From: Siphonodentalium dalli
Lineage: Eukaryota; Mollusca; Scaphopoda; Gadilida; Siphonodentaliidae
Length of the DNA: 64,000 nucleotides
NCBI GenBank assembly: GCA_032622095.1
Contig: CP136067.1
Coordinates: 60,336,893 to 60,400,892 of the forward strand
Direction: 5' to 3'
Shown here: positions 19,718-50,735 of the stretch, in pieces
Position numbering within the stretch: the first letter of the stretch is position 1
Layout: every line of letters starts with the position of its first letter
The notes under the pieces: model-generated
What the model was told of the DNA's origin: nothing
What the model saw: the letters and a program-made list of their open reading frames with translations, nothing else
The model's database searches: none
Made by a program: the position numbers and the translations under genes

Positions 19718-20640
19718 AGCGATGCTATTGATCGTCGGAGTAAACGAACTCCACTAACGTAGTGCATGTTTTCACTTCGTTGAAAATTTCAATATGATCG
19801 TATGAATAGTATAGGATATATGGGGTATTGTATGAAGGGGGAACTAACTTCTTTTTTGAGGTGTTTATTAAAAAAAAAAATATAATTTTAATTTTTTAAA
19901 TAATTAAAGAAAACAAATGTTGTTTTAATTTAATTTAGATTGAACTCCTTTTTTTTTTCTTTTTTTTTACATAATTTAACACTTTCTTGGTGGGAGCATC
20001 ACTGATGCAGCATTACAGATCCTGTGCTAGTGCATTATCTTATGCGAGTCTCCCTATTTGACCCATAAATTATAATAATTTGTTTTATTATGTACATTTG
20101 TCTATAATAGTACATAACAGTATACTCTAAAATTCAACATAAAAACTCTAAATTATGATTCCGATCATAGTAATTTAGTATCGCCAATAATGGGTTAAAC
20201 AACTGCCGATCGTGATCGACCTCTCGTTCATCCTGGATTTATGCCTTTATGTAAATGGTTGAAATATTTGGAATGATTTATACCGTCATAAAATTTGGCA
20301 TGAGTTGGCTTATGTACAGCATCCTAGTTTGTTCCTCTGATAAACATCTCTGTATACATGTTATGCAAAACATCTTTTAAAATGAGGAGTGTCCATGCAG
20401 CTAACTGCAACATCTTGTCGTCCTGATTGTGAGATGAATATTAGTGAGGAAAATGTTACAAATTTGGTGCATGGTCTCAATTTAAGAATGTGCAGATGCA
20501 GAATGTGGCTATAGGGTTTCCATTGGGTAATAGACCAAAATTTCCCCACTGGTATCACAAACTTTCCAACCTACTGTGATAACCCTGAAGAATCGTCTTG
20601 GCTTCAAACTGACTCATCTTTCTATCTTTGTTCATTGTAG
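19718..20640. other. Intergenic/intron upstream of exon 20641
   Basis: This stretch contains low-complexity A/T tracts (19868-19975) and a 3'-end fragment of a Helentron-like family at 20170-20232 (TATCGCCAATAATGGGTTAA, then CCGATCGTGATCG and CCTCTCGTT). The last ~50 bp is a pyrimidine-rich tract ending TTCATTGTAG, a good splice acceptor. Confidence 0.4.
20170..20232 (+). repeat. 3'-end fragment of the CCGATCGTGATCG-hairpin family
   Basis: About 60 bp match the 3' terminus of the element at 5963-6544: TATCGCC, GGGTTAA, the hairpin, then CTCTCGTT. Nothing upstream matches the 5' part, so it is a solo end or a truncated copy. Confidence 0.55.
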
Positions 20641-21176
20641 ATGGTGACAAAGATGGAATGGTGGTCAGTCTGAAACAGAATCCCACTCATAATTTGTCAG
20701 ACGTCAAAACAGTAAACAAGATGAAAATTAAACAGGAACCCACCGGCTCAAAATCTATTGACACTCCAAATGTGAATAACTCATATGAGACAGATATCAA
20801 GGCATATGAACAAGTACCGGGACCTCCTGTTCTTACTAAAGATTACTGCAATCAGTTTCTATCAGAGGAACTCCTATCCAACAAATGTGTACATGGGAAA
20901 TACAACCATGCTCAGCTTGCTTTCCGATTGCTAATCAAAGAAGGGCTGGTTCACATCGGTTTGTGGTTTAACCCTCCTTGTCCTAGAGACATTAACCAGG
21001 ACCAGCAGATTAAGTTCTTTGATTTTGTGTTGCACTTCTCGCCTTGTTTAGAGCCATATAAGGATGTCGTTTGGAAGAAGGTTTGTCGCTCGATATTGAA
21101 TCGGAGATCCAGATTGCAGATTTCTAATGTGGCCAATTTGGGTAGGCCGACCCAATTTGTTGCTGATTTCTGTTGA
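20641..21176 (+). CDS. Terminal exon A: K-x-E-P motif plus unrecognised C-terminal domain
   Basis: An open frame of 178 codons follows an acceptor (TTCATTGTAG) and ends at TGA 21174-21176. Its first two bases complete a codon, so the intron is phase 1, as for the exons at 394 and 23239. The N-terminal third is polar, with a SUMO-acceptor-like IKQEP. Residues ~60-160 of the exon form a conserved domain. It starts L-T-x-x-Y, has L-L-S-N-K-x-V-H-G-K-Y-N, then G-L/M-W-x-N-P-P, F-D-F, L-E-P-Y-K and L-N-R-R-x-R-L-Q. It is about 58% identical by eye to exon B. The pattern (F..E.LLSN..V.GK, then a W..(C/I)R..L..R.R.L helix) faintly recalls BEN DNA-binding domains, but this is weak. A nuclear regulator is inferred; no function is assigned. 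The 5' exon is not in view. Confidence 0.7.
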
Positions 21177-22840: not shown

Positions 22841-23190
22841 CATTTGCAGAATGAAGTCTCCAGAGGCTAGTGTTACCGAACTCACCCTCTGGGGACCTCA
22901 TTCTGCTTAGGCCTCATCTTCTGGGATGTATCTATAGTCTCAAATTAACACTGTTTCTGTTACTTTTCCCCTCTGTTCAGTTTCTATATCCCCTAATTTT
23001 CAGAATATAAGATGCACACTCAAGGTGACTAATGGTGAACATCACCAACTTCAAAGGGATCCCATAGTATTTTGAGGCCTTAAAAGAATGAGTTCCCAGA
23101 GTGTGAATTTGGTGATGTTAGCCCGATTAGTAGGATGGCATCACTAAATTCAGCGTCTGGGGAGTGGGGATCTCATTCTGCAATTGACAG
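22841..23190 (+). mobile_element. Foldback MITE (GAATGAGGTC family), copy 2
   Basis: The element has a CATTTGCAGAATGA start and a CTCATTCTGCAATTG end as terminal inverted repeats. Each end carries its own inner inverted repeat (CCAGAGGC/G...CTCTGGGGACC). The core has TTTCTATATCCCCTAATTTT. It ends about 50 bp upstream of the acceptor of exon B, in the same orientation as copy 60481-60893. Confidence 0.7.
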
Positions 23191-23238
23191 ACACATTATT
23201 TGCAGGCTTGAATAATTACTGGCTTCTTTGTTATTCAG

Positions 23239-23981
23239 ATGTGACCATTGTGAAGAAAGTTGGTTCCAACATTGCAATCAAACAAGAGACTGTACTCAGC
23301 ATGAGCGACTGCGATATGGGTGAAAGTGCAATCAGGAAATCTAGTCGAAGAAAAGGGATTCCAATAAAAAAGGAACCTAATTCTGGGGAAGACCTCGATG
23401 ACTTCAGTCAAAGGGCACCATCAATAAGCAACAAATATGATCTCGAGAATAGCACAAAGTCTGGGATCAGTTACATTGATGCTCAGGAGTCTGAATTTTG
23501 TGGGATTGATATTGTTAAGAAAGAAGTTAAAATTTGTGAGAGTTTGAACACCCCTCCATCAAAACTAAAGGACAGTCACTATGACAACCAGGACAGTTAC
23601 TATGGAAATGTTTCATTCCTACCAACAACATTAACACAAGAATATGCCAGCCAGTTCAGCCCCGAGGACCTGTTATCCAATAAAAACGTTCATGGTAAAT
23701 ATAACACCGCTCAGCTGCTATTTCGTATGCTGCTTAAGGAAGGCATGGTGCATTCTGGGATGTGGAATAATCCTCCGTTGCCACGGGAGATGACAAAGAA
23801 TCAAGAGTGTTCTCTGTTTGACTTCATTTTCCACTATGCCGCACAGTTAGAGCCATACAAAGAAGTGTTGTGGATTAAGATAAGAAAATCCTTGCTGAAT
23901 AGACGAACCCGACTCCAGATTGCAAGTCCAAGAAAGTTTGTCACATTACAGACTGATGAACTCTCATCCAATTCAGTTTGA
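23239..23981 (+). CDS. Terminal exon B: SUMO-site-like motifs plus the same C-terminal domain
   Basis: An open frame of 247 codons starts after TTTGTTATTCAG (acceptor at 23238, phase 1) and ends at TGA 23979-23981. The N-terminal ~145 residues are polar, with AIKQE, IKKEP and VKKE motifs resembling SUMO acceptors and basic R-K-S-S-R-R-K. The C-terminal domain (about 23620-23940) mirrors exon A: L-T-x-E-Y, F-S-P-E-D-L-L-S-N-K, V-H-G-K-Y-N, G-M-W-N-N-P-P, L-F-D-F, L-E-P-Y-K and L-N-R-R-T-R-L-Q. Some 57 of ~98 domain positions match exon A by eye. It may be an alternative 3' exon of the gene that uses exons 394 and 20641, or a paralogue. An earlier AG (TTTGCAG, 23205) gives a TGA shortly after in one frame and is less likely. 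Weak BEN-domain resemblance only. Confidence 0.75.
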
Positions 23982-41493: not shown

Positions 41494-42359
41494 TGCACAT
41501 CTAGATTATAATTTCGATCATAGAATTTACTATCGCCAATTAAGGGATAGGTCAAACCATCGACGTATATTATATTAAATGTAGATCGATGGTTAAACAT
41601 GCCGATCGTGATCCCTTTGAGATGGTAACTTGTGCACATTCTGGGACAGCATAGCATATTGTGAAAGGCGAATGTGATTTTATTGAACTTACACAGATGA
41701 ATTTAAAAAAGAATTTAGCATCATAATGATTCCATGGTTTTTGTGCATCCACTATACAAATAATGTACGGTACCGGTACATTACGTTCATGCGCCTACCT
41801 GGATGTGCATAGTGATCGATAGGGTATTGTGGTGTCTCATGAACCACAACACCATTTTTTCTGCTGTGTTATGTTCGGTCTTTAGTATAACGACGTTGGC
41901 CTATATGGTGGTCTAGCCACTGTATATAAGTAAAATTAAATTTTAAGTAATAGTATCCCAACATAATTAAAGCGAATACAGTGGCGAATATATAACTTAA
42001 AAAAAAAATAAAACCGCCCAGCTTGTCTTTTAGTCACCGCCCCCAAAAAATCCGGAAGCTTGGCGCCAAGCTTGGCTATTAGTAACTCTCAAATTCGGTA
42101 CCAGAGCTCTCATTCAGCAAACAGTGAATAGTGGATGACAACAACAACAACAAAAATAAAAATAAAAATTAACAAGATCGTAAAAAACGGGTTATTTTAT
42201 CGACACTTTTCTTACAACTATGTAAGTCACGAAGAAGAGCTATTTTAGCTTATTTTAACAATACGTGTTAATGTGAATGTTTCCCGTTACTATGTTAAAT
42301 TTACGAGACGCTTAGATTTTCAAAATGGCTCACCTATATTCGTCGTATCACTATCACTG
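41494..42359. other. Intergenic; decayed 3'-end fragment
   Basis: 41523-41616 shows TACTATCGCCAATTAAGGGA and later GGTTAAACATGCCGATCGTG, a CCGATCGTGATCG-family end. A ~45-bp hairpin interrupts it (ACCATCGA...TCGATGGT). Near 42058 is a palindromic AAGCTTGGCGCCAAGCTT. No gene recognised. Confidence 0.4.
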
Positions 42360-42709
42360 CTGCTAATGCCATGGGTTTTTGTCGTAATGTTTTATACATA
42401 GATGCACACCTTGTGTATTTCTGTATACATAAATGCACACAGACGTCAGTCTTGCATAGTGTCACGTGACAGGGTCATTGTTTTCCACATAAATCATGCA
42501 CGCTTCTGGGTTCTAGACGTTTCGTACCATCTGGTCGTTTCGTACCATATTTTTTGGTCGTTTCGTACCGTGTGTTGTACCATGTTGGGAATGGGGGAAA
42601 ACAGTATTAATTTCATACTTTATTCTTTATTTTAAAATAACAATAACATATTAACATTAACAACATTATTTTACACAACAATATTGAATATGGGACATGA
42701 TATTTGATA

Positions 42710-45120
42710 TTAACAATCAGCCGACTCGACAGCAACGACAACAACTGTTGGCGCAAACAGTTTTGAACATGCCTTCAACAGACCACTGGTGGAGATGCCA
42801 CCATTTTCGTAGTTACTCCACAAGCAGAATAGTTGCGCCTGGTTCTCCCGATACTGGAGTTTTTGGTACCTTTTCATCTTTTTTTCACCAACCAACTTTA
42901 CTGTCATGTCTGTCGTTGCTAGGGCTGGGCGATATTGGCCCCAAAAAATATCGCGATATTATGGCGACAACATCGCGATACACGATATTATCGCGATATT
43001 ATTTTGGTATATTACAATGGGTAAGTACAATGTACAATATATGCAATATTTCATGAATAAAGTTTGCACAATACATCCCTACGTTTTATTTACGATTTGT
43101 GGGTCATGAGAGGTCGAGTAAATGTGTATTGAACAATTATCAGTAACATCACAGTATACATGTATATATAATTGACAGTTTGCCGACGGAGAAATAATAA
43201 CTTTGAAACAAAGGGATATAATCATATAACACGGCCCACGTGCGTTTTCGCATACATTTTTTAGAGTTATACCCCTTTGACCATAGCGCTCAACGCCATG
43301 CACACATTAAGCACCGCATTCGATTTCAAATTGCCATTTTATTAATTTGTGAGGAATTGGTTGTTTGTGAGACTATTAATCAGTGGTAATTGGTAGTTGG
43401 TAGCACCGTGGGACTTCAATGTCCATATACGACAGCCCTGGGAATTAGCGTCGACAATGCCACAATGGGCAGTGCCGAAGGCAAAAGCCGACGTGAAATG
43501 AATTTGCGTCGGCATTTTTTTAGCTGAGGAAAATAATATAGACAATCATGTTCAATTAGTTTGTGAATTTGACATTTGTTGAAGCGATAGCAATGCCATG
43601 ATCCGTACGGCACATGTCCACAAAATCATTTTACTCGCAATTTGCACACATTGAGACGATCAGCTAGACTAAGTGTGGTCAATATAAAATCTGACACCGT
43701 AATCCGTCTCCAAACAACCGGTTACGGTTGATAGAGCAAGCTGCACCAACTTGAAAGGAGGTCATTGTGCCAGTCGCATGCGCGCGACATACCAATCTCA
43801 CAGTGTAGCCAACTGATGCTACTAGTATCTCTTTGATGTTTCCGACGAAGCATATCCAACTTGACAAGCACGTGCTCCGATGTTTTAAAACGTTTTCGAC
43901 TGCGTATTTCCGGGAAGTTTGGGACTATTATACTTACTCTAACTTCGCTGTTTGTTGGGACCATATGATGGGTTTCAACCTACATGGAGAATATTACAAC
44001 TTGGGACGGTATTACGATATTTTTATTTCAGACGATATTATTGACGATATCAAAATTAAAACCGGGTATACCCGATATATCGTCATACCGCCCAGCACTA
44101 GTCGTTGCCGATTCCTTCTTGAGCATTGGAACCAGGATGTAATATGGGATGTTTGTTGCCTTGTTTTTGTATTGGATGCGTCTGTGCCATCCCTCAGTGT
44201 CGTTGTTTGTTCGGATGGAGCGCCCGTTGACGCACCACGATTCCATTGGTAGACATCGGGAGTCCAGCCACTGTGATTCCACATACTCGTAGATTAACGG
44301 CATGTTGCCGATTTTGGCTGTCGGGTGATCTCGCATCCTGGCAAATGCTGGTCGGATGTGTTCGGCTGGCAGAAGTGGCAAAGCATAAAGCTTTCGCAGT
44401 TGCCTACAAAAATGAAAAGAAGATATAAACATAAATAAGAAAATTTCAGTTTGTTATATATATTATTCTAATTATACCCTTATTTCTGCTAATTGAAATA
44501 ATAGCATTATTCTACTTTATATATAATTGAAATAAAAATAATAATCATATAAGTTATATTTATTTAATCATCATACAATTCTATTATTTTATTCATACAA
44601 TTCTATTATTTTATTTTATCTACTATTTTATTTTATGAGAACAAATATTTACCTGTATTCGTCTCCTTTTTTGTTGTACAGCCCTTTCTTTTGAATCTGC
44701 CTATTCACGGCCTGGGTCCAGTGAAATAACAACCACGTCTTTCCACCTCTGGTAGTAGCTTGTGTATGGACTTCCATGTTGCCTTTTCAAAATCCATTGT
44801 CACTGTCTTCACTGCAAGTTCATCTGGTAGTAGTTTGAGCAGTGATTCGAAGACCTGAAATGACAAAATATCATGTTGTAATATTTAAATGAAATAAATA
44901 TCATGTTATAATTAAATGTCATATTGTAATATTTCCAATAACAAACTCCTTTTATTTAGTTAATAGTAGAATTTTTTTTTATTGCATTGATACATAAATT
45001 ATATTTAAAACTATTATCTTGAAAACTCATAATGTATAAATGATGCGTACCGTATCATAATCTTTTGCCTTTTGACGACTCATCAGAACATAAATTACAA
45101 TTAACGTCGGAGAGAAAGTC
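42710..45120 (-). pseudogene. MULE transposase, truncated and interrupted (minus strand)
   Basis: Three exon pieces are visible. 45051-~45120 encodes the TLIVIYVLMSR...DYDT part of the catalytic core. 44653-44854 carries the second catalytic aspartate in T-M-D-F-E-K-A and then an FHWTQAV-type stretch. 44403 down to 42710 carries ALPLLPAEH, the GRSIRTNNDTEGWHRR motif and a C-terminal R-Y-Q / LWSNY / LLKAC helix region. Donor and acceptor sites (CAG|GT at 44652, TTTGTAG| at 44404, TTTCAG| at 44855) define introns. A one-base frameshift lies just before the WTQ stretch. The N-terminal part with the first aspartate is absent. The last exon is split by the hAT-type insertion 42920-44100 and its duplicated GTCGTTGC. 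The family is clear; the gene is dead. Confidence 0.8.
42920..44100. mobile_element. hAT-type element inserted in the MULE transposase exon
   Basis: A perfect 8-bp duplication GTCGTTGC (42912-42919, 44101-44108) flanks 1181 bp. The termini are TAGGGCTGGGCGATAT and, inverted, TAGTGCTGGGCGGTAT. Subterminal TATCGCGATAT-rich blocks occur at 42950-43005 and TATCG words at 44020-44085. The TIR and 8-bp duplication are classical for hAT. No transposase was recognised, so it is non-autonomous. Confidence 0.9.
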
Positions 45121-45700
45121 AGACATGATTGTGAGATGAATGATGAAATGATGGGGGATCTCATGTTACTTGTAGGATTCCAACAAAAACAACTCACGAA
45201 AAGGTGTGATCAAGAAGCCAGGTGGTAATTAGTGGTAATCAGTAAGAGCTCACCTCTTGTTTATACAGCGTGATTACTATTAACACTTGTTGTAAAAACA
45301 TCTCATAAGATCTTTCCCGCAGTCAATCAGATGAATACTATTGTCAGCGTGATTGTTATTCACATTCGATGTAAGCAAATCTCATAAGATCTTTCGCCGC
45401 ATTCCAAAACATGAATAATTATACATACATAATATAAACATAGATATAAAATACCGTGTTTTCCCCATTTCCAACACACGGTACGAAACGACCAATTGAT
45501 TTTCTACATGGTACGAAACGACCAAAGAATGCGGTACGAAACGACCAAACAATATGGTACGAAACGACCAGATGGTACGAAACGACCAAGTACGAAACGA
45601 CCATGGTACGAAACGTCCTGTACCCACGCTTCTAGATATTTTTTGTAAGTTCATTTTCTTCCAAGTTCCATTCATCGATCAAACAACATCCAGTTCTTTC

Positions 45701-48185
45701 TCAGATAGCATGACATGGTTGGGCCAACGTTGGCACAACCACCCTCTGAATGGTTGGGCCAACGTTGGCAACCAACATTATTTTTGCTCATTGGGTCAAT
45801 GTTGGGCTAACGTATTGGGCCTTCGTTGTCGTTGGGCCATGCCTTGCCAACGTTGATATCCAGACCACATGGTTGGCATAACGTTGGCCCAATGTTGGAA
45901 ACTAAACCCATTGGTTGGCATAATGTTGACCCAACGGAGGGACAACTTTGGAACCTCAAACTGAATTGGTTGTCATAACGTTGGGGAATTCTATTTTTTT
46001 TCCTTTTTTTTGGCATCCAATAATCCGTTCATAATTCAGTTACCACCGGCAGGGCTCCACCATTTCACTATCTGATGCAAGTTTCTGAGAAACTACTATG
46101 CATATCAGTGATGTAAGTATTCTCCGCTATAACTTATATAGGGACCTGCGAATATTCGAAATTCGATTCGATGTCGACATCGGGCACCCGATTTGAGATC
46201 GACACCGAATCGGTCCGCTGATTCAGATATTTTCGAAGCGGTGATTGGTGTAGTCTCGTTTTTTGGGCCTAAATAACACATGCTAAATTATCTGAACTCA
46301 CAAAAATTGAAGCACAAGGTTGCCAAGTTAGCCAACGTAGGTAATTTTGAATGCATACCGTTCAGAGTAGACGTGCATTATGCAAATTATGTACTTCGAT
46401 CGCGCAAACCGTGACTGTGATCAAGCGCCGCATATATTTATAATCGGTATCGGCACTATGTAAATTGTCTACACGGTGCGTGATCGCTAGATGCGGAACT
46501 CAATTGATTACCTTATGTTTAGAACTTCATATATCCAATTCAGATTATATGAATAAAATTCAATGTCAGCCGCCGTTATGATCGACAAAACATAGATTGG
46601 AATGATCAGAAACGGTGAGAAACCTTAGAACAATCGGTCTATTACGTTCTTAAATGGATGTCATCGTGTGCGACCAGTTATCTGCGACACTGCAGTCTGC
46701 CGGTAGAAGGCCTATAAATTCCTTCTCTCAGTTTCTGTTTCCCCGAGAAATTGAGGGCGTTATACCAAGTTTCGATCCTTTGAATCTTGTTGATAACATT
46801 TAATACTTGTAACTTGTGTCTGTTTTATGGGACCCCCCTCCGTGAAGACAACTACAATGAATATGTGATGTAGGTGTTTGATCTATTGTGGGGTGAACAA
46901 TTTAACAGATAAATGCCAATTGTATCGGACTACAACAATTATACAGCTGAACGGTGTACACATGTCCAATTGTGTCAAATATTTATTATCTGTATTAAAT
47001 AATGTAAACAAGTGACTTCCATTCCATGGGGTCTGTGATACGTTGATTGAACTGTCTTTAAGTGTTCTACTGTCACTTCTTGTGTCATGTTCACCATGAC
47101 ATTTTGTCAGATAGAAATTCAATGCAACATATCCCAAACCCTCCATGAAACTGAGAGTAACTTGCCTATGTCATGATTTTCCTAAAAGAAAACACAAGAT
47201 CCAATGGATGTTTAAGGAGATTAACATTATTATATGGTATCTAGTGAATTTTGCAGTTTTTTGTCAGTGACACCGAAATACACAATGGTAGACAATGTTA
47301 ATCACTAGCTGATTCAATTCGAGATTCGATTCGATGTCGATATCAGGAAGGAGATTCGATATCGAGATTCGATTCGATGCAAAATCCCTGATTCGCAGAT
47401 CCCTAAACTTATATGTACCGTACGCTGTGCAAACATTCAGGACTTGGGAAAATAATTAATTAATTTTACAAAAAAGAGTAGTTTCTCACAAACGTAAACC
47501 TACCTCTGATAACGACCCGATGACCGATGGTGGCATCTAAAGAACGAACAAATCCTTGAATTCCAAATTAAAGAAACTGAATCCTTTATTTGCTAAAATC
47601 AGTACCAGCAGCAACACTGAACGAGAACCAGAACAAAGCGCGCAATAAGAAGTTTGACGTCAGAGCTTTCTACGTCATTTACGTTGGCATTACAACGTTT
47701 GGCCAGCGATATACCAACCGACACCAGCCAATCGTTGCATATATTGTGTCAGCAATGATTGTATACGTGTGCATGTTTACGGAACATTAAGTATCGGCAT
47801 ATCGTTCAGATGTATCACATGTACGCTAGGCCTATATATTTAATTGGACTGCCATGAAGCTGTTAGCGTTGGTCCAACATAGGACCAACGTTATAATTCC
47901 AACTGTTGTCACGTAAACCCAACCAATACGATGTGCACAGTAAATTCCATTTTCATGTTGGCGTTGGGCCAACGTTATAATTCCAATGGTTGGGAGGAAT
48001 ACGTTGGGCCAACCACACCAACCGAACCAATTTACTGCAGATAATTCTGTTGGCATGTTTGCGTTGGGCCAATGTTGGGCCAACCTTATATTTCCAACGG
48101 TTGGGAGAAATACGCCAACAACATCAACCCAACCAAACCTATGGCAACCGTGCAGACATTATGCCAACGTAGTCATGCTATCTGG
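45701..48185. mobile_element. Unclassified TIR element with arrays of GGGCCAACGTTGG palindromes
   Basis: The ends are inverted CAGATAGCATGAC (45702) and GTCATGCTATCTG (48172-48184). Flanks GTTCTTTC (45693-45700) and GTTCTGTC (48186-48193) could be an 8-bp duplication with one mismatch. Both subterminal zones (45718-46000, 47865-48165) are filled with words such as GGTTGGGCCAACGTTGGCA. The self-complementary core CCAACGTTGG is repeated every ~30-60 bp. Without its own insertion (46139-47405) the element is ~1.2 kb. No transposase was recognised. Confidence 0.75.
46139..47405. mobile_element. hAT-type element inserted in the GGGCCAACGTTGG element
   Basis: A perfect 8-bp duplication AACTTATA (46131-46138, 47406-47413) flanks 1267 bp. 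The termini are TAGGGACCTGCGAAT and, inverted, TAGGGATCTGCGAAT. Subterminal TTCGATTCGATGTCGA repeats occur at both ends. It has no recognisable transposase and differs from the 42920 element, so it is a second hAT family. Confidence 0.9.
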
Positions 48186-48214
48186 GTTCTGTCCCTGTTA
48201 AATACCGGTACTAA

Positions 48215-48595
48215 GTGAACGTTCAGACGACCACGATACAATCGTAAGTGGAAAGATTTCCATCATAGGAAGTAACCGGTAGTTGGACTGTGCATGCTCA
48301 CGTCAAAATCGTAGGTAAAAAAATAATATCAAGCACTGTTTGATTTTAGATGCGAAATCGTGGCGTTTCCTTAGTTACCCCCACTTGCGACATAATCGCA
48401 GTCGTATGTACGTAAAAATCGCAGCTGGAAATCACCGTAGGGTAGTCAATCACATGTATGCTTTTAATAGGAACAACCTACGATATCATAATGTACGAGT
48501 ACGACGTCATCGCAATCGTGTGAACAAACTATTCACGATCTCGTCGGGTCCGATTCCTCCACTTCCGATTGAATTGTGGTCGTCTGAACGTTCAC
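48215..48595. mobile_element. 381-bp MITE with TAA duplication (PIF/Harbinger-like)
   Basis: TAA (48212-48214, 48596-48598) flanks inverted ends that begin GTGAACGTTCAGACGACCAC; the arms match over ~35 bp with a few differences. The right arm of the foldback shows the unoccupied site (GGTAATAAGATC). A 3-bp TWA duplication is the Harbinger signature. Confidence 0.8.
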
Positions 48596-49566
48596 TAAGA
48601 TCAATATGCGACCGATGATCAATTTTATTGCAGTTTCGTCATTGTCTTTATCAGAACTACGGAAGAAAAATATTCTGAATTGAAGCAGACGGCAATTATT
48701 TACGGCAACATTTCAATCTGGCGCCGACTGAGACTGGTGTGCATTTATGTATACATAAATGCACACGGTGTGCAATTATGTATAAAACATTACGACAACG
48801 ACCCCATTAACATCACTGCCATGGTCTCGTACCTGGCTCAGACACTCCACTCACTGTTCTGTCCAACTGCACGACGTAACGCTTCCACCGTCAAAGTCCA
48901 GTAAGTGCCACCATCTTAGGGGGCGGAATTCCGCCCCCTAGTACAATTCCGCCCCCTAGTACTATTTTCGGATACGACGTCATGAGCTAATGACATAGTA
49001 AATATACTGCTTTCCTATGCCCTAGTACACCTGCGTGCTGGTTTCCTGGGGATTTCTGGTGACGTTATATATATCAACGACATAATCCAAAGAAAAGCTA
49101 TGTCGGCACTTACACTAATGGGGTCGTTGTCGTAACGTTTTATACATATATGCACACAGTGTGCATTTATGTATACATAATGTATATGTATAATGTATAT
49201 ATACATAAATGCACACCAGTCTTAGTCGGCGCGAGATTGAAATGTTGCCGTAAATAATTGCCGTCTGCTTCAATTCAGACTATTTTCTTCCGTAGTTCTG
49301 ATAAAGGAATTCTTTTATAACAATGACGAAACTGCAATAAAATTGATCATCGGTCGCATATTGATCTTATTACCAGCATTAAACAGGGACTGAAAGAACT
49401 GCATGGTTGTTTGATCGATGAACGGAGGAATATGAACTTACAAAAAATATCAACTCGTGTGCATTTATGTAGAAAACACAAATGACAATGACCCTGTCAC
49501 AAGACACTACACGAGACTGGTGTGCATCTATGTATAAAACATTACGACAACGACCCCATTAGCGGC

Positions 49567-50439
49567 ACTTACATGTTGTTGTCTTCCGTTCTTCACTGTA
49601 AGTTTTATTTTAGCACTTACTAGTCGCTACACATTCCGGAACGTTGCGCCTAAGTAGCGTAGAGGAGGCTGAACGTTGGTAGGCGAGTCCAATCACTGCC
49701 AGTGCCGCTGAAGGTTGGCGATTATCGCAATACGATAAGGGGACACACCGACTTTCGTACTCAGATATCACCATTTTTGTTTTTACATAGCTTGCCTCTC
49801 TGAAGTTTGGGGTGGGGGGGGGGGGGGGGTTTGTGTATTGTAACTTCTAAGTCAACTCATAGTAAATTTAGACAATCACCTTTTTGTCATTTAGATGTGT
49901 ATATGTGGTTAAAATTGGAACATTGGTCAGAAGTTAATGTGAGATGTTATGCACGGGATTTAAATTATTCACTGGCCCTCCCAGAGTATGACATGAATAT
50001 TAATGATAGTGCACATTGAACTGCACTACTGTAGAAATCATGGCCAATAGTAAAAAAGCTGTTAAATTATCAACAGGCTCCGCCCCTGAGTGGCCTACAA
50101 TCTGTCAATTTAAGATTGATTCATAGCAATATAAAATTGACGTTCCTTGAGTTACAGGTCAGAAGTTACTGTTCTTTGTAATAATTTATGCCTTCCTTTC
50201 TGTTTGCCAAGACAAAGCTTTTTGTTTGATATAAGAATAGGACTCCTCACAAAAGACATTATCTAATTTTTTCGTGGTAGAATCAGTTTCAGTACATACT
50301 TAAATCGGGTTTACACAGTTTCAACTTCAATGTTTATTACTTTTTATACATAGTACACACATTCTAGCAAACTTTTGTTCTGACAGCCAAGTATGCTTAC
50401 CACTTTTAGTTGCTTTATTCTATTGTAAAAAGACCCGAC
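49567..50439. other. Intergenic, nothing recognised; poly-G run
   Basis: A G-rich run at about 49809-49829 and otherwise plain AT-rich DNA. A 70-codon frame at 49807-50019 begins in the G run and is not called. Confidence 0.3.
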
Positions 50440-50735
50440 AATGCGCGATTTGACCTTGAATTTACCATTTTGAAGGTCAGGTCGGGGTCACGATTTGACC
50501 CGTCAAAAACACTCCCTGGACAAAAGTATCCCCAGGTATAAAATTTCGTCGAAATTGTCAGTTTTACATGATTTGCCTTGAATTGGCCATTTTGAAGGTC
50601 AAGGTCAGGTCGGGGGTCATGATTTGACCCGTCCAAAACACTCCCCGGACAAAATTATCCCTAGGTATCAAATTTCGTCGAAATCCGTTCGGCAGTTTTC
50701 CCGGCCATAGCTAACAGACAGACAAACAGACAGAA
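50440..50735 (+). repeat. Two-unit repeat with GACCCGTC boxes and AGACAGACAAACAGACAG tail
   Basis: Two ~145-bp direct units share CATTTTGAAGGTCA, GATTTGACCCGTC, CACTCCC-GGACAAAA and AAATTTCGTCGAAAT boxes. A CGTTCGGCAGTTTTCCCGGC box and an AGACAGAC tail follow. The plan is like the tails at 9240 and 27780, so this is probably a fragment of a dispersed element. Confidence 0.5.

Follow-up and report, generated by a model that had tools for sequence, protein, structure and literature searches.

Two inverted copies of one MITE family, in place of a foldback, in a probable nest of eight DNA transposons in Siphonodentalium dalli

Positions 42353–49700 of a 64,000-nucleotide window of the Siphonodentalium dalli genome (G000:C7:60336893-60400892, the whole stretch analysed, in a 2.2-Gb genome of nine contigs) hold what is, with a probability of about 0.94, a nest of eight DNA transposons derived from separate cut-and-paste insertions. 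Two long inverted segments of this locus, M1-L on the left and M1-R on the right, are within that reading two copies of one family (M1) of miniature inverted-repeat transposable elements (MITEs) rather than the arms of one foldback element. What had been taken for the loop between them is the greater part of a third transposon, S, which M1-R entered. A first-pass annotation had described 42360-49566 as one foldback with at least six elements in the nest; the limits are corrected here to 42362-48811 for the left copy and 49114-49563 for the right copy, S reaches 49691, the structure as a whole extends to 49700, and the number of elements rises to eight with the addition of S and the second M1 copy. 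The relative order of insertion and the use of one copy as the empty site of the other are retained from that account. All eight elements are of the DNA-transposon type, and their limits, their target-site duplications (TSDs), the family of each piece and which element sits in which were directly observed, as was the collinearity of the two copies after excision. The features are as follows, with the strand where one was assigned (TIR, terminal inverted repeat; MULE, Mutator-like element; ORF, open reading frame; L numbers denote loci elsewhere in the genome unless stated otherwise).

42353..42361: left TSD of M1-L, ATCACTGCT; 8 of 9 bases match 48812-48820
42362..48811, minus strand: M1-L, copy of the ~450-bp MITE M1 with 9-bp TSD, inverted relative to M1-R and interrupted by three elements; its own pieces are 42362-42507, 45634-45699, 48189-48214 and 48599-48811
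42508..45625: TACGAAACGACC-type MULE-like element; TSD ACGCTTCT at 42500-42507 and 45626-45633
42920..44100: hAT-like element 1, within the MULE-like element; TSD GTCGTTGC at 42912-42919 and 44101-44108
44109..44453, minus strand: partial open frame (of ORF 44028-44453), matched by eye to a longer frame in L048, L049 and L051
45700..48186: palindrome-rich element with TTGGGCCAACG repeats, left terminus CTCAGATAGC and right terminus GCTATCTGGG; 2-bp TSD TT at 45698-45699 and 48187-48188
46139..47405: hAT-like element 2, within the palindrome-rich element; TSD AACTTATA at 46131-46138 and 47406-47413
48215..48595: PIF/Harbinger-type MITE (the TAA MITE), TIR GTGAACGTTCAGACGACCAC; TSD TAA at 48212-48214 and 48596-48598
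48812..48820: ATCACTGCC, common to M1-L (right TSD) and S (left TSD)
48821..49691, plus strand: S, MULE-type MITE of 335-340 bp elsewhere, split by M1-R and a ~39-bp filler; flanks ATCACTGCC(A) at 48812-48820(1) and 49692-49700(1)
49105..49113: left TSD of M1-R, GGCACTTAC, also native S sequence
49114..49563, plus strand: M1-R, uninterrupted M1 copy inside S
49564..49572: right TSD of M1-R, GGCACTTAC
49573..49611: ~39-bp filler, after which the 9-mer stands a third time as AGCACTTAC (49612-49620); not in the five aligned S copies

Each of the two inverted segments bears the same terminus at both of its ends (GCTAATGGGGTCGTTGTC... and its reverse complement, with few changes). M1-R is enclosed by a perfect 9-bp TSD, GGCACTTAC on both sides (49105-49113 and 49564-49572), and M1-L is flanked by ATCACTGCT (42353-42361) and ATCACTGCC (48812-48820), so that the pair is bounded on the outside by unlike sequences (ATCACTGCT versus GGCACTTAC). 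M1-R as a genome query gave 1145 first-look candidates, 40 of which were scored. TSDs were surveyed at 71 M1 loci (L001-L030 and L073-L113, L001 being M1-R itself), with a tolerance of 2 bases at most in the boundary position, which slightly flatters the match; both ends were present at 56 of them, and the TSD agreed at 8-9 of 9 bases in 47 of these 56. The 43 distinct TSDs, read on both strands, yield the motif GTCASTGAC. A 9-bp TSD is named as common for MULE transposases in one report (PMC3169594), and the M1 TSD is of this size; together with the long TIRs, it fits a MULE-type MITE. M1 copies also lie close together elsewhere, as at L023:1500-2926, where two in direct orientation are ~550 bp apart.

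The S element was delimited from its copies elsewhere. The query 48821-49104 returned 380 candidates, of which 40 were scored, and five aligned copies start with TAGTCTCG (TGGTCTCG in the window), end with GAGTCCA and measure 335-340 bp. In the window, S begins at 48821 or 48822 and ends at 49691, and ATCACTGCC(A) on each side forms a TSD of 9 bp, or 10 bp with the next A. TSDs of 9 bp are present in four of the five aligned copies (perfect in L033 and L035, 8/9 in L032 and L036, by eye); L034 lies within a cluster of S pieces, and its TSD was left unscored. With these TSDs and an imperfect TIR (TGG[TA]CTCGT, by eye), S has the 9-bp TSD and terminal inverted repeats of a MULE-type MITE. The 9-mer GGCACTTAC stands once at the M1-R site in each of the five S copies, with one changed base in L035.

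For alignment of the two M1 copies, the three insertions and one TSD copy of each were removed from the left segment. In the resulting end-to-end alignment, the excised left copy (451 nt) and the right copy (450 nt) agree at 369 positions and mismatch at 30, with 103 gap columns; by eye, the biggest gaps fall within repeated TIR-like blocks. The local alignment score is 511, compared with a maximum of 35 among 200 shuffles of the right copy. The collinearity after removal of three insertions on which the first-pass annotation had relied is thus borne out, as are, in substance, its empty sites for the palindrome-rich element and the TAA MITE. At the former, the excised left copy reads CAGTTCTTTCTGTCCCTG, the right copy CAGTTCTTTCAGTCCCTG and the majority of 24 other M1 copies CAGTTCTTTCGGTCCCTG; at the latter, the excised left copy reads GGTACTAAGATC, the same as the majority of those copies. 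M1-R serves as a paralogous empty site, supplied by another copy of the M1 family and not by the other arm of one element. That all hits lie in the left arm holds for the three primary insertions (3:0) and carries no meaning, because the two-sided chance of such a skew is 0.25 for equal targets (hand calculation).

The composite was also sought as a unit, in junction searches that scored the best places only, among which a copy of the whole unit would be expected to score highest. The M1-L/S junction (query 48620-49020, best 40 of 1497 candidates) is repeated at 0 of the 39 other scored places, where M1 similarity runs to the junction or overshoots it by up to ~10 bases; BLAST detected no S in the places compared, save at C7:192860210-192860751 (in locus L073, treated below), which holds both M1 and S with a different joining point. 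The S/M1-R junction (query 48920-49320, best 40 of 1153 candidates) likewise recurs at none of the 39 further places scored: similarity to S breaks off inside the TSD or one base beyond it, and similarity to M1 starts at the junction itself or up to 13 bases ahead of it. Among 29 other M1 loci (L002-L030, ~1.5 kb on each side, hits of more than 60 bases), none has S between inverted M1 copies, L023 has a second M1 in direct orientation, and L011 has part of the S spacer nearby.

Two other origins of the inverted pair have to be considered. The pair could be a single foldback that moved as a unit, with long inverted arms and a loop, and whose left arm later happened to receive three elements, as the first-pass annotation had held. 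The arms are indeed inverted, ~300 bp apart and identical at 369 of 399 aligned bases, and there is a precedent in Tm1, which represents Mutator-related elements that combine 9-bp TSDs with composite TIRs of a foldback-like kind (PMC3169594). However, both M1 termini and a TSD of its own are present on each arm, the outer TSDs of the pair do not agree, the loop belongs to another transposon, and neither the junctions nor the arrangement recur in the searches described above. One foldback is therefore very improbable, and that part of the earlier description is abandoned. Inverted MITE copies with their own TSDs can mimic a foldback, and a check of the inner TSDs separates the two.

Alternatively, a local inverted duplication, or gene conversion between copies, could have made the second arm from the first. 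In favor of such an event, the inverted copies are close to each other and their nearer halves are more alike, with 11 differences in the inner 212 aligned bases and 24 in the other 187. The two copies were compared with 24 other M1 copies, a set from which L001 (M1-R), L030 (whose TSD duplicates that of L029) and four loci lacking an end pair were removed and in which L027 (with the same TSD as L026) was retained. Relative to these, M1-L and M1-R have no derived base in common but 19 and 15 private ones, respectively, and differ at one further column, each in its own way. Their mutual distance is 0.088, which exceeds the mean of 0.071 among the 24 other copies; 80% of the pairs in that set are closer than M1-L and M1-R. 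As M1-R also has its own perfect 9-bp TSD, an origin of one arm from the other is hardly to be expected, and two separate insertions of M1 are preferred. A 26-nt inverted match (42121-42146 and 49574-49599) was provisionally set aside as a candidate outer TIR; on the right it falls in the ~39-bp filler that interrupts S. In a search of 41600-42352, non-self matches cover about 41612-41768 and 41953-42095.

The elements inserted in M1-L, and those inserted in turn in two of them, were compared with relatives elsewhere. Seven relatives of the MULE-like element were looked at, six of them with both ends; the TSD is 8 bp in five of these and in the window, and 9 bp in the sixth. MULE TSDs are 8-11 bp long. 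None of four frames from the nest, those of the MULE-like element included, has a Pfam match, nor does the longer frame of its relative L049; ORF 44028-44453 in the window is cut by hAT-like element 1. Another ORF of L049, a locus whose second end was not found, encodes a FLYWCH zinc finger (Pfam, E 4e-6), a domain common in animal MULEs. Which transposase moved each element is inferred.

TSDs of 8 bp flank hAT-like element 2 in the window and in 3/3 relatives, as they do hAT-like element 1, whose three relatives all lie on one flanking sequence (in either orientation) and so count as one. One 95-aa frame in hAT-like element 2 has no Pfam match, and no search for autonomous copies was made. 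For the TAA MITE, a TWA TSD is perfect in five of six loci, including the window (TAA), and reads TAA/TAT in L058. In PMC4482050, hAT elements are given TSDs of 5-8 bp and PIF/Harbinger elements the TSD TWA, which are the values found for the two hAT-like elements and the TAA MITE, respectively.

The palindrome-rich element has the terminus CCCAGATAGC (CTCAGATAGC at the left end in the window), with ends CCCAG. Nine relatives were looked at, five of which lack one end; a 2-bp TSD is present in all four with both ends (by eye, AT in L039, L040 and L044, CT in L045, compared with TT in the window), and these replaced an initial TSD of 4 bp or 8 bp. In the same source, ISL2EU elements are defined by the TSD AT within A|AT|T, and the TSDs of CMC elements are 2-4 bp long (PMC4482050). 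The palindrome-rich element resembles both in its 2-bp TSD and differs in the TSD sequences and the CCCAG ends; with TT, CT and AT observed, it does not follow the ISL2EU rule, and neither ISL2EU nor CMC membership is established.

The nesting itself orders the insertions: M1-L preceded the MULE-like element, the palindrome-rich element and the TAA MITE; the MULE-like element preceded hAT-like element 1, the palindrome-rich element preceded hAT-like element 2, and S preceded M1-R. Several of the genome's DNA-transposon families are thus placed in relative order by the nest. Distances to family majorities, which were built from 3 to 24 best-matching rather than random copies per family, are (CpG unmasked) 0.086 for S, 0.052 for M1-L, 0.047 for M1-R, 0.045 for the TAA MITE, 0.042-0.045 for the palindrome-rich element, 0.022 for the MULE-like element (right part) and 0.012 for hAT-like element 1, and they agree with the nest in 5/6 host–guest pairs. 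When CpG sites are masked, M1-L is at 0.032, M1-R at 0.039 and S at 0.095. The larger divergence of S suggests that it came before M1-L.

The locus was most probably built in the following steps. S inserted at ATCACTGCC, presumably first, and M1-L landed at one of the duplicated target sites of S; another M1 copy, M1-R, entered S at GGCACTTAC in the opposite orientation. M1-L later received the palindrome-rich element (2-bp TSD), the PIF/Harbinger-type MITE (TAA) and the MULE-like element (8-bp TSD), and the palindrome-rich and MULE-like elements each received a hAT-like element.

Several observations weigh against this account. Among the 71 surveyed M1 loci, 15 are without an end pair and nine have weaker TSDs. 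The empty site opposite the MULE-like element, which had been proposed together with the other two, is present but is a looser fit (ATGCACGCTTCTAGATATTTT versus ATGCACACGTGTTGATATTTT). A filler of ~39 bp and a third GCACTTAC stand unexplained between the right TSD of M1-R and the rest of S (49573-49620). A 29-base piece of the filler occurs at 12 places in the genome at up to 3 mismatches (window included), with none for the reversed control, and at three other places the similarity to the filler is only 26-31 bp long; conceivably, though this is a guess, the filler and the third 9-mer were left by an element that once inserted at this site and was lost. The non-random choice of copies also bears on the distances, among which hAT-like element 2 at 0.068 (three copies) exceeds its host, the palindrome-rich element, at 0.042-0.045, a discrepancy that could be put down to sparse sampling or to an old subfamily. 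The age margin of M1-L is not robust, because its CpG-masked value of 0.032 is below the unmasked values of guests. Finally, as S and M1-L share one TSD, the TSDs fit either order of these two.

M1 may in addition recurrently target particular 9-mers of S (GGCACTTAC), so that M1–S–M1 clusters would arise above chance; this would add to the anatomy described here without competing with it, and it is a tentative possibility on the unlikely side. A different S copy, at L073 on the same contig (C7:192859900-192861200; L073:118-854), also contains an M1 insertion, which lies at the mirror-image occurrence of this 9-mer and whose GGCACTTAC TSD is perfect. In L033, S carries the 9-mer twice, inverted (0-based offsets 79 and 266), and the M1 TSD motif includes CACT. 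However, L073 came up through the junction search showing S beside M1, and among 69 M1 loci chosen otherwise (L002-L030 and L074-L113, the latter with flanks of only ~200 bp), none lies within S, and L011 has S ~60 bp away. Use of the GGCACTTAC site is therefore seen twice, and enrichment is not shown. It is doubtful, more broadly, that M1 re-uses sites made or carried by transposition, namely the S TSD ATCACTGCC and the 9-mer GGCACTTAC, present twice in S; under such re-use, the M1-R site was perhaps hit once before, leaving the ~39-bp filler and the third 9-mer. If this were so, each S copy would be a portable landing pad for M1, and stacked MITE clusters would seed themselves. Re-targeting of S by M1 would also offer a small test case for the growth of MITE clusters.

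The locus is an ordinary set of nested transposons. Both Mutator/foldback elements and MULEs with other elements nested in them are already known kinds. M1 and S are like MULE-derived MITEs (non-autonomous members of the Mutator superfamily) in shortness, terminal inverted repeats, 9-bp TSDs and genomic repetition, and M1 differs from them by its palindromic target motif GTCASTGAC. Tm1, a Mutator/Foldback element of root-knot nematodes, shares TSDs of mostly 9 bp and repetitive TIRs (PMC3169594). In that report, Tm1 is one element in one TSD and shows no clear TSD consensus, whereas two elements, two TSDs and the M1 motif are found here. Stacked transposons are also present inside the coding MULEs of maize and rice, where, as here, sequences were aligned only after the nested elements and one copy of the TSD had been taken out (PMC3903597). 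Many of the guests in that account are LTR (long terminal repeat) retrotransposons in maize or a MITE in rice, whereas all eight elements here are of the DNA-transposon type.

Rfam gave no match in the window at gathering scores, and for loci L069-L072 it gave four matches. These belong to two microRNA families, lie without exception in L070 and score far short of the gathering thresholds. To the right of the nest, 49830-50443 is a further dispersed repeat of ~610 bp (query 49701-50500, 2551 first-look candidates, 40 scored). To its left, the plus-strand open frames 20613-21176 and 23148-23981, neither with a Pfam match, have 61 of 114 aligned residues in common and are possibly tandem paralogous exons.

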